In this document: one piece after another, positions 50,698 through 59,166 of the stretch
How the letters are laid out: each line of letters starts with the position of its first letter
Numbering within the stretch: position 1 is the stretch's first letter
Assembly: GCF_041146795.1 (NCBI RefSeq)
Contig: NC_135176.1
Location: 12,027,286-12,091,285 of the forward strand
Source of the DNA: Maylandia zebra
Lineage: Eukaryota; Chordata; Actinopteri; Cichliformes; Cichlidae
Length of the DNA stretch: 64,000 nt
Direction: 5' to 3'
Notes under the pieces: model-generated
Told to the model about the DNA's origin: nothing
The model's input: the letters and a program-made list of their open reading frames with translations, nothing else
Database searches by the model: none
Made by a program: the position numbers and the translations under genes

Positions 50698-51627
50698 TCA
50701 GGACAAAGGTGATGGTTTAACACTGGCTCTAAAGCCAAATGTAAAATAGTATTTGAAGACACGGCAGAGAGTTTGATCTCTGAGGCCGTATATGAGTGGG
50801 CTCAAGCACTTTGGGAAAATGATGAGACCCACAAAGAGGACGTACTGAGCATGAATAGCCATATCAGGAGGCACTTTCAACATCATGCTGGGGTTTATCA
50901 TATTGAACAGGGTGGAGGTGAGATACAGCCACAGCTGAAGCAGATGTAGCAGCACTGTCTTGGGTGCCTTATTGGTATGACGCCCTCTAGATGAGGCTGA
51001 CTTCACAGTGATCATGATTGCAGTGTATGTATAGATAATAATCATACTCACAAACACAAAATAGAGAATGGTGAAGGCCATGTTTAAAGTCACATAAACT
51101 TCTAGGCGAAAAACACTGTTTCTGATGCAGAACGACTGCATAGGGAAGATCGTCTTCTCCATCCTGACAAACAGGAAAAGTTGTATGAATGAGTCTAAGG
51201 ACGCCACTATCCACATAACGGCAATGGCTTTACCCGTCGACCTCGGCGTGGCAAAGCTGGGGTGCCTCAGCGGAAAACAAACTGCAACATATCTCTCCAA
51301 AGACATCACGGCAAGGTTGAGAGGAGACATTTTAACAGTGACGGCCGCAAGCAGTGAGACAAAAACACAAACATAGTTGATCATTCTGACCATCATCACG
51401 GCAAAGATGTAAAGCAGCATAGTCAGCAGCAGCTGCACAGAGTCACACATGAGCAAATGACCAAACAGGATGTACCGGGAGGACTCTAGTAACAGAGGCT
51501 TCTTCAACAGGGCAAACATCATGATGGCATTTACATACAGGAAGAAGAAACACGGCAACATAGACAGCGCAGCTTTGACTGAAGTCTGAAACGGCAACGA
51601 CTGGAACTCGGCCGTTGTGGCATTCAT
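50698..51627 (-). CDS. Odorant receptor 131-2-like class A GPCR
   Basis: A single intact coding exon of 309 residues. Seven hydrophobic segments are visible. It has an N-glycosylation site at Asn2 (NAT), the TM2 region ILFGHLLMCDSVQLLL, and the TM3 end SLERYVAVCFPLRHP (an ERY version of the DRY motif). The TM6 region is KTVLLHLLQLWLYL, TM7 has LSPLIYGLRD, and the C-tail is short. This pattern, in particular MSPLNLAVMSLERYVAVCFPLRH, is that of the teleost 131-2-like receptors, thought to detect odorants in olfactory neurons; the ligand is unknown. I chose the start at 51627 because a splice acceptor (CCTTTGCAG) ends at 51649, which puts the upstream in-frame Met (51675) in an intron. The only GPCR in the window. 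Confidence 0.88.
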   Translation of the reverse strand: MNATTAEFQSLPFQTSVKAALSMLPCFFFLYVNAIMMFALLKKPLLLESSRYILFGHLLMCDSVQLLLTMLLYIFAVMMVRMINYVCVFVSLLAAVTVKMSPLNLAVMSLERYVAVCFPLRHPSFATPRSTGKAIAVMWIVASLDSFIQLFLFVRMEKTIFPMQSFCIRNSVFRLEVYVTLNMAFTILYFVFVSMIIIYTYTAIMITVKSASSRGRHTNKAPKTVLLHLLQLWLYLTSTLFNMINPSMMLKVPPDMAIHAQYVLFVGLIIFPKCLSPLIYGLRDQTLCRVFKYYFTFGFRASVKPSPLS

Positions 51628-51836
51628 GACTGCAGTTTCGCACCGTGTCTGCAAAGGCATGAAAAACACAAACACGGACTGATTTTTAATATTATAAACA
51701 ATTCCGAAAAGTGTAGATTGTGCAAGATGATTCTGTCAAATATCACAAAAAAAAAAAAACAGCATCAAAGTGAGAATTATGTGCCAAACGTAGATGGATA
51801 ATATGAAGTTATATGCTTTGTAGACATATTACTTAC

Positions 51837-55325: not shown

Positions 55326-55421
55326 GTTAAAGCAGAACTGAAACGATTATCATATTATTCTACATATATTTAATGCATCTCTTGGAAATTTAACAACCTC
55401 ATTCCTTAGTAGTGAGCTCAC

Positions 55422-58400
55422 TTACCACAGGTATCCCTCCTTAAACTCAGTGAATTTGTGCCGAACCATAAATGTTGCTAGTGCATCTGCTACCTAGCAA
55501 CAGATGTCAGAGGAGCAAGTTAAAACATTGAAAACAGACATAACAACACGCAGCACGCATACATAAATATATAACGTTATGGGCCTCTGACATGAGTACA
55601 GTGCCAGTAAATTCGGGTAAGAACGCTCACTTTCTCAGGTGCATCCTCGTGAACAGCGTGACCGCACTGAGGGAGGACCTGCATCTGAAACTTTCCTGCA
55701 AACAAATAATATTTTTTTAAATGCGTTTATTCTTACAGAAAATTGCAAAAAAAAGGGAGAAACAATCTGTGCACTTTACCCTGCATCTGTCCAATGGTAA
55801 GATCTTTGTCAAGCCTGTCTATTCCTGTACAACGAGATAAGTCAGGCGTGAAACTGTGCAGTCAGTGTGTGTGTCCTATTTAAACTACTAGATATTTGAG
55901 AAAAAAAAAAAAAAAAAAAAAGAATAAATCAAACCTGCGAGAAGGAGCAGTTTTGGCACAGGGGTGGTGAGAAAGAGGGCAGACAGACCCTTGAACCAAC
56001 CCTCCCAATATTTTTCTGTCTTGGAAAGCTCTACTCTCCAGGTGAAGATGCTCTCCTTTTTCGTCTGTGTGAAAGAATTCAAATACTCTTTTATAGCTTT
56101 CAATCTCTTTCCAAAACACTTACAGATGACAAGAGAAAACTAAGAAGCAAGAGACCAAACCTCCTGGTCATCCTCCTTTGCTCTTTTCTTGCTGGATTCT
56201 TCTTCTGCTTCCTCATCTTCCTCTTCTTCTATAATACCTTCACCAATGCTATTAGACACCCCTGAACTGCTGCTGGATTCCTCACATCTGTAAAAGTCAC
56301 AAGAGAGGAAATTGAAATGGTCAGTTAAAGCCACAAACCCACACGGAAAAAACTGCAGAGAAGAGAGAGCCCAGACACACTTTTTCACTTGGCCTCCCAT
56401 GGACACCCGGGCTGACTCGATGTTTCGGATCTGGCCGCTCTTCACACTGAAAGGAAAAAGGTGAAGAACACCTTTAGGCACTTGTATACAACAATTAAGA
56501 ATTGAAGCTCTTCAAGGTAAGGAACTGCAACGAACAAATAAATAAATAAAGAAGTTATTTCAGTGTGCTTTGGACAAATAACACTTGGCACAATTTGCAA
56601 ACTAAAAGACAGAATATATATGTATGATGTAATCTAATCAAACAAAAAGATGCAGCAGTGTGGCTCACTGTTTAACATTTACCTCCACTCAATCGCATTT
56701 TCCAGAGATCTAAATGTTTTTGGCCGACTTCTGAGGAAATTCTGCATACTGTTCAAAGCATCCATTGCTGTCCCTGAGTGTTAACACAAACAAAATTATT
56801 TAACAAACCCACAATTAGTGCTTATGGCATTTATTAACAATATTCAGCATAATAACTTACATTTTACATCATTAAAAAAAACTAAACAACTAACAAAAAA
56901 AAAAAAGAAGAAAGAAATGGCAAATGCTTTCATAAAAATCAATGAGAGCATCCTGTACTGGAAAAGACCCAATCATGTGATCTGCTCATGTTGTTGCATA
57001 GACTCGTGCACACAGTTAAGTGTTTAAGTATACTCATTGTTTTTCTTTGTTCCCAGTATTGAGAACATTGATTAGCATAATATTTGTTCAAGTGCTCTTA
57101 GTAGAACAAGCCAGTCACTGATCAAATTTGGACTGTTAATGAAGTTGTACTGACATGTGACTTTGCCCATTCAGAATAGAAGAACAACTTGTGGATCATT
57201 TAAGCCATTTTCAGTCTCCTCAGTAAGGGCCTCAAAGTAACTGCCCAAATAAGTGACCTGAGGCGTTACCAAAGCAACTCGCAGGATTTGTCTTTAACGA
57301 CTTTGGAAATATGCACTTATCTGTGGAGCTTACCCTCTACGACGTCAATGACGCACAGACCAAGCAGGGATGGTATATGATTGGCAGTGGCAGTGTGAAC
57401 TGCAATGGCCCCTCCCATGCTGTGTCCAATAAGCATGATTGGAGGTGGGTTGTCTCCATAAAGTGCCTCCACCACTTTGCCAATATCCCTTTGGGGAAGA
57501 AAAAAAAAAAAAGAAGCAAGAATATAACCTGTCAGCCTGTTTTTCAGTTATGATTGAAACTCTAATCAGGAAGCTTGTAACTACTTTTTACATTTTACAC
57601 CGCAATCAATAATCCAAATGTGAGCCACAGGAAGTCACCACACTCTTCCCACTTTTAATGAGCGGTGAAATCAAAACTTTCTTAATTAAACTCATGCCTG
57701 CTGGATCATCACCACCTTCTGTGGCGTCCCATATGTTCCTGTGATGTAAACCCAAGAAGCAGATGTTTAAAAACCATTCCCACAAAAAACTGTGTTCTCT
57801 TAAAGACTTACTTCGCCATCGTATCTGCAGAGAGATCTTCAGGATTTTTCACTTTAGTGTCACCTGCAGGTGATGACAGAGATTTAACTCATTTGATCCA
57901 TGTACGCTGAGGCAAAGAATGCCATAATCCTCTAACCACGTGCAAAAATAAAAACTTGCTGTGTCCTGCAACCTACCATGAGCTCGGAGGTCCATAGCTA
58001 CCACCCTGCAATTAATCCTGCTGTATATGATGGCCTGCAAGAACATAGATAAAAATCATTTCAATTAAATAGATCACAGACGATATGTTGACATTAAAAA
58101 AAAAAGCTTTATAAATATTCTGCCCAACATTGCTGTTAACTTTAATGTAGACTGCTAACAGATCATAAAGGGTCTGTAATAGTTATGAAGCTCACAGTGA
58201 ACACCGCCCAGGATAGTGCAGAATGGCCTCCTCCGTGAAGCAGGAGCAGCACAGGACCATGGGAGCCACTGCAGTAAATTCTGAAAATGTTCACAGTGGT
58301 CAAAGAAATACTAATTGAAAGAATAATGAAGTAAGCAGATGCTCGTCCAACAATAATGCACATTAATCTTCTGCATATACTCTAGTCATATAGCACAATG

Positions 58401-59166
58401 ATATCAGGAGTTAAATCTGAAGACTTGGACCCAAAGTGTGTGTCATTCATGCTCAATTTCCTCTTACAAACTGGAACAGCAGTCAAGGATATATCTTTGC
58501 CGTTTTCATTTTCCACCACTATGTCTTCCATGGTTTCAAAATACTGACTCCAGGGCAGAGGAGAGAAATCTCTCTTACGCCCAGGTCTGTAAATAAAAAG
58601 AGCAAAAGTAAATAAGTAACCGAATCCATGTATGATGTGACTCAACACTGCAACAGGACTGTTAAACTTTGTAGAAGCAATTGAAAGACAAAAAACCCTC
58701 CAGACTAAAAATAACTCTCCCCTTCTTTTCACATCATCAAACATTGCAATAATAACAAAATAGAAAAATAAACAAAAAGACAAAAAAAAATAATAAAAAA
58801 CAAAACAGAATTTTCAGACTGAAAGGATATCCTTTTAAATTTTAAATGCTAACACGCAAAAGCGCCAGGCTAAATCAATCAGTGGTGTATAACACTGATT
58901 ATCTAAACTCTGGTAGCAGATGCAGCTAACCTAGCCGGGCTAAAGCAATCAGTTACGCAGTGCAATTCAGTGAGTCTAAATATACGATTACACTCCCTGG
59001 CTTTGGGAATAAAAAAAACACAACCGGCGTGATAGTGCACACAACTAAACAAATAAATGCTAAGATCCTAGCTAACTCACCCCATTTTCATTTTGGAGCC
59101 AGACTGAAAACCACCTGCCATGGGAGGTCTGGAGGCTAACAGGTTCAAATGCAACTGTTTCTCCAT
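55422..59166 (-). CDS. ppme1: Protein phosphatase methylesterase 1
   Basis: Thirteen coding exons: 59166-59081, 58586-58493, 58288-58196, 58034-57977, 57863-57812, 57488-57334, 56773-56683, 56446-56381, 56287-56161, 56064-55935, 55824-55780, 55695-55631 and 55493-55422. Phases agree throughout, giving 377 residues (human 386). The enzyme is an alpha/beta hydrolase that removes the methyl ester from the C-terminal Leu of the PP2A catalytic subunit. Visible features: SRPPMAGG and MKMGPGRKRDFSPLPWSQYF near the N-terminus, the oxyanion-type LLLLHGGGHSALSWAVF, nucleophile Ser151 in IGHSMGG, Asp176 in CVIDVVE, and His345 in LPQCGHAVHED. An acidic Glu/Ser-rich loop (residues 234-274) lies between VSMGGQVKK and the TWRVELSKTEKYW-GWF block. 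The C-terminus ends KEGYLW, shorter than in human. Intron 2 is not GT-AG: it starts ATATCCTT and ends AC. The first ATG after an in-frame TAA was taken as start. Confidence 0.95.
58289..58492 (-). other. ppme1: U12-type AT-AC intron (ppme1 intron 2)
   Basis: No GT donor fits the end of exon 2, but GGCAAAGAT|ATATCCTTGA matches the minor-spliceosome 5' site ATATCCTT exactly. The intron ends GTGAAC|ATTTTC, so the termini are AT and AC. A branch-like TTCTTTGAC (consensus TTCCTTRAC) puts its branch A at 58300, 11 bases from the 3' end, in the usual U12 spacing. Joining at these points gives GKD-IFRIYCSGS, the expected methylesterase sequence. The intron is 204 bases and of phase 0. Confidence 0.88.

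Follow-up and report, generated by a model that had tools for sequence, protein, structure and literature searches.

A U12-type AT-AC intron predicted in the ppme1 gene of Maylandia zebra

Introduction

In human, 770 minor introns are distributed over 714 genes (PMC6717393) and, for zebrafish, 612 genes with a U12-type intron are counted by IAOD (PMC9501576). The AT-AC subtype makes up 8-26% of the U12-type introns over 13 vertebrate rows, with 22% for zebrafish (PMC7367187 Table 2). Table 1 of the same paper contains the U12-type AT-AC intron of human SMYD2, ATAAAT/ATATCCTTTA...CTTTCCTTGACT...AGCAC, and the U12-type intron of opossum RNF121 (TTTTCTTTAACC). Furthermore, twintrons, in which U12 and U2 sites occur at one position, are described for vertebrates (PMC3564746).

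The intron considered here is intron 2 of the ppme1 coding region in Maylandia zebra, for which the following features were determined:

58289..58492, minus strand: ppme1 intron 2, 204 nt, phase 0, AT-AC ends, very probably U12-type
58485..58492, minus strand: U12-type 5' splice site ATATCCTT, by sequence match; pairs with the U6atac of the same genome at -10.0 kcal/mol
58299..58307, minus strand: branch-site-like 9-mer TTCTTTGAC, one base off TTCCTTGAC; the presumed branch A is 58300
58289..58290, minus strand: 3' splice site AC of intron 2, read directly

The SMYD2 and ppme1 introns are alike in the start ATATCCTT, in the end of the branch motif (TTGAC) and in the terminal AC. They differ in phase, which is 0 in ppme1 and 1 in SMYD2, and in the branch motif, which is TTCTTTGAC in ppme1 and TTCCTTGAC in SMYD2. 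In RNF121, as in ppme1, the second C of the branch motif is replaced by T, but the RNF121 intron has GT-AG ends, whereas those of ppme1 intron 2 are AT-AC. As in the twintrons, the ppme1 intron contains a GTAAG donor and is closely followed by a TTTTCAG; unlike in the twintrons, this U2 pair is a candidate only, and its product runs into a stop at once. The twintron genes in the available part of PMC3564746 Table 1, which covers fewer than its 18, do not include PPME1.

Materials and methods

The window is the whole stretch of DNA analysed, 64 kb in length, taken from a genome of 962 Mb in 63 contigs; ppme1 lies on the minus strand. For the boundary between exons 2 and 3, 35,440 donor/acceptor pairs were enumerated, with donors from 58546 to 58387 and acceptors ending from 58517 to 58217, at least 30 nt apart. 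Joins of five splice-site classes (GT-AG, GC-AG, AT-AC, AT-AG and GT-AC) were scored against the human PPME1 segment. Chance expectations are rough values from a first-order Markov model, and the branch pattern used for them tolerated either pyrimidine (C or T) at the one base by which TTCTTTGAC leaves the consensus. The presence of a minor spliceosome was judged from the snRNA genes U11, U12, U4atac and U6atac.

Results

Gene model of ppme1

The coding model of ppme1, built from the regions flanking the intron, comprises 13 exons, encodes 377 residues and ends with a TAA stop. Eleven of the 12 introns are GT-AG, and AT-AC ends are found in intron 2 only. The coding parts are:

59081..59166, minus strand: coding exon 1, from the ATG (gene model, human PPME1 alignment)
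58493..58586, minus strand: coding exon 2, PGRKRDF...NENGKD (gene model, 7soy_P match)
58196..58288, minus strand: coding exon 3, IFRIYCSG...SWAVFT (gene model, 7soy_P match)
55422..58195, minus strand: remaining coding region with exons 4-13 and the GT-AG introns 3-12, to the TAA stop (gene model, alignment)

Residues 1-371 of the 377 in the spliced product align to human PPME1 (7soy_P 4-375) with an E-value of 2.8e-200, and the alignment is free of gaps at the junction. The 62 amino acids across the exon 2/3 junction match 7soy_P on their own with an E-value of 5.5e-33. The exons join as ...NENGKD/IFRIYCSG..., which is the counterpart of human NETGKDTFRVYKSG. A Pfam search with the product gave the alpha/beta hydrolase fold (Abhydrolase_6, E-value 2.9e-27).

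A donor-like sequence, GTAAGTGAG, at 55417-55430 (minus strand) overlaps the final ppme1 codons (CTGTG/GTAAGTGAG). An alternative C-terminus via a further exon is therefore possible, and the exact C-terminus is uncertain because this GTAAGT donor overlaps the last codons. Beyond the 3' end of ppme1, an intronless frame for a rhodopsin-family 7TM receptor is present at 50704-51735 (minus strand; Pfam 7tm_1, E-value 3.6e-18), which by eye looks like an odorant-receptor-type gene.

Position of the exon 2/3 boundary

Among the 35,440 pairs, 614 have ends of one of the five splice-site classes; the reading frame stays open in 288 of these 614. The highest score of the 614 joins, 296, was obtained for AT-AC 58492/58289, and no other join among them brings GKD and IFRIY together in a product of human length. 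The second-best join (AT-AC 58490/58296, score 283) adds three residues, and the best scores in the other classes are 281 for GT-AC, 278 for AT-AG, 261 for GT-AG and 256 for GC-AG. None of the other open joins among the 288 of the five classes gives the same protein; accordingly, all GT-AG, GC-AG, AT-AG and GT-AC joins enumerated were rejected, no open one yielding the GKD-IFRIY protein. Products of 62 residues result from five of the 288 open joins. GT-AC 58477/58274 is the only other 62-residue join that keeps the downstream frame, with SLTA replacing FRIY and a score of 269 versus 296.

When the dinucleotides are ignored, seven joins encode the identical protein, since the exon ends can slide together (TC-TT, TA-CA, TA-AA, CC-TT, AT-GA, AT-AT and AT-AC). 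Only AT-AC 58492/58289 of these seven falls in the five splice-site classes. The initial annotation had stated that only these ends give GKD-IFRIY in frame; this holds among the five recognised splice-site classes, but not for the reading frame as such, for which seven joins are equivalent. The coordinates 58289..58492 given there, the AT and AC ends, the branch-like 9-mer and the distance of 11 bases from the branch A to the end agreed exactly with the minus-strand sequence.

An ordinary GT-AG intron removed by the major spliceosome, with its donor at 58467 (TTTGTAAGA) and its acceptor ending at 58281 (ATTTTCAG) or at 58342, is a very unlikely reading of this region, even though its donor contains GTAAG and the TTTTCAG of the first acceptor ends just 8 bases after the AC of intron 2. 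The 58467/58281 join makes a TAA at the junction. The 58467/58342 join is open, but it adds 26 residues that human PPME1 lacks and its acceptor (TTGTTGGACGAG) is poor, and the best of the 56 open GT-AG joins stays at 261 against 296 for the AT-AC join. The positions concerned, together with the stop met on retention of intron 2, are:

58281..58467, minus strand: possible GT-AG fallback with donor TTTGTAAGA and acceptor ATTTTCAG; candidate, TAA at the product junction
58382..58384, minus strand: in-frame TAG on retention of intron 2, codon 97, from translation of the retained intron

Two GTAAG donors (58578 and 58467) allow 27 GT-AG fallback joins, 19 of which meet a stop upstream of the exon 3 end; the other eight are open as far as the end of exon 3, to which point the reading was followed. 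When intron 2 is retained, the reading frame extends over 36 codons of the intron and terminates at codon 97, upstream of GHSMGG, the nucleophile motif of the alpha/beta hydrolase fold.

Splice signals of intron 2

On the minus strand, intron 2 reads ATATCCTTGA...TTCTTTGACCACTGTGAAC. Its 5' end matches the consensus RTATCCTT of U12-type 5' splice sites at 8 of 8 bases. Near the 3' end, TTCTTTGAC deviates from the branch consensus TTCCTTRAY at one base, which was counted against the U12-type reading. The 9-mer begins at 58307 and its A58300 is followed by 11 bases up to the intron end. From the branch site to the 3' end there is no pyrimidine tract, and PMC2846911 states the same of U12 introns. 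Intron 2 is in phase 0, which is comparatively infrequent among minor introns (about 22% on average; PMC10639083), and this was also counted against the U12-type reading.

Removal of an AT-AC intron by the major spliceosome was considered as a further explanation, and it is equally improbable for intron 2. An ATAAG-type start is known for U2-type AT-AC introns, whereas the 5' end of intron 2 is an exact RTATCCTT, and the branch-like motif lies close to the intron end, with no pyrimidine tract after it. U2-type AT-AC introns do exist, since 85 major introns of AT-AC or related subtypes were analysed in human cells (PMC8280824). That intron 2 is an ordinary GT-AG intron whose ends were changed by an assembly error is the least probable explanation of all: intron 2 was read in a single assembly, but the two separate ends, the 8/8 match to the U12 5' consensus and the branch-like motif would all need to be errors, and the flanking exons are intact.

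Seven copies of the octamer ATATCCTT are present in the window, both strands counted, compared to approximately 2.2 expected copies (first-order Markov, 1.7e-5 per base), and hence the octamer means little on its own. By chance, it would coincide with one of the seven joins encoding the identical protein with a probability of about 1.2e-4, and a branch-like 9-mer would fall in the 12-position zone before the intron end with one of about 1e-3 (both rough first-order Markov estimates). Thus, it is the placement of ATATCCTT, not its mere presence, which exceeds chance.

A second exact ATATCCTT is located at 58823-58830 (minus strand) in intron 1 of ppme1, 338 bases upstream of the copy in intron 2; the plus strand at this spot likewise reads ATATCCTT, from 58827. 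The intron 1 copy at 58830 pairs with U6atac at -8.9 kcal/mol, which was counted against the U12-type reading of intron 2. We regard this copy as a decoy and not as a competitor of the intron 2 5' splice site, because joining 58830 to 58289 would skip exon 2.

Minor spliceosomal snRNAs and pairing

All four minor snRNA families were found above the Rfam cut-offs in the same genome, with bit scores of 127.9 for U12, 133 for U6atac, 122.3 for U11, and 88.4 and 84.1 for the U4atac-like loci. U11, U12 and U6atac have one locus each, compared to two for U4atac. The two U4atac-like loci are located on different contigs (L004 1501-1632 and L005 1501-1629) and differ at many positions.

The U6atac stretch CAAGGAUG forms 8 bp with UAUCCUUG of the intron 2 5' splice site, the last being G-U, at -10.0 kcal/mol, versus -0.5 to -5.7 kcal/mol for the other 11 donors of the gene. 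Of 20,000 12-mers drawn at random from the strand, 99 pair with U6atac at least as well. Pairing of U11 at the same 5' site gave -4.4 kcal/mol, a value equalled by 5,594 of 20,000 random 12-mers, and five of the 11 GT-AG donors of ppme1 pair better with U11 than the intron 2 donor does; U11 pairing is uninformative for the class of intron 2. The U11 and U6atac values together were matched by 67 of 20,000 random 12-mers.

At the branch site, U12 pairs with TTCTTTGAC at -4.4 kcal/mol, compared to -7.1 kcal/mol for TTCCTTGAC; by sequence, the departure from TTCCTTGAC replaces a G-C pair with U12 by a G-U wobble. A free duplex calculation between the U12 5' end and the last 30 nt of the intron did not choose the branch site, and 794 of 1,000 shuffles were as good or better. 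When the intron was scanned in this way, the branch-binding stretch of U12 found its best partner at the intron's 5' end, not at the branch site.

Discussion

Intron 2, one of the 12 introns of the ppme1 coding region, almost certainly does belong to the U12-type AT-AC (A-type minor) class and would be removed by the minor spliceosome. The gene model, the sequence of the splice sites, the pairing with the U6atac of the same genome and the four minor snRNA families lend good support to the U12-type class proposed in the initial annotation. The position, phase and ends of the intron, the continuity of the protein, the potential to pair with U6atac and the minor snRNA genes are read from the DNA itself. 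As expected for this class, U11 and U12 would recognise intron 2, U6atac would take the place of U11 at the 5' splice site, and A58300 would act as the branch point.

Most vertebrate minor introns are old, and the PPME1 intron is therefore expected to be listed already. In a literature search, no publication was found linking PPME1 to U12-type, minor or AT-AC introns, the minor spliceosome or ZRSR2; the gene lists of U12DB, MIDB and IAOD lie outside that search, and no novelty is claimed. The ppme1 intron is a real but ordinary member of the known U12-type AT-AC class.

The orthologue search of viral contigs found no locus. Matches of bacterial origin to the part of the query from PPME1 exon 3 comprise four beta-proteobacterial loci (L006-L009), with 71-79% over 18-21 residues. 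They originate from two Rhodoferax, one Burkholderiales MAG and one uncultured beta-proteobacterium MAG, and are uninformative on the intron.

Were intron 2 left unspliced, translation would end at codon 97 and hence no active enzyme would be made, because this stop precedes GHSMGG. Productive ppme1 mRNA should thus depend on minor splicing, since a stop arises both when the intron is retained and when 58467/58281 is used as a GT-AG join. Such a dependence would hold for many genes with introns of this type and is not by itself proof of a control of PP2A methylation. The tie between PP2A demethylation and minor-spliceosome function suggested in the initial annotation is, in any regulatory sense, a hypothesis, and U12-type introns are present in hundreds of other genes too. 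CENATAC depletion in human cells led to retention or use of cryptic major sites for 92% of the A-type minor introns (PMC8280824), which makes the prediction for ppme1 testable.

A more far-reaching proposal, to which we give little credence, is that the splicing speed of the A-type intron 2 sets ppme1 output in this lineage. The weak branch site would make splicing slow, unspliced or mis-spliced transcripts would be wasted through the decoy U2 donor at 58467 and the in-frame stop, and PP2A methylation would rise when CENATAC or U6atac activity falls.

With the AT-AC intron, the ppme1 model is correct at a junction which would escape a gene finder restricted to GT-AG introns, and ppme1 is predicted to be among the genes sensitive to the loss of the minor spliceosome.
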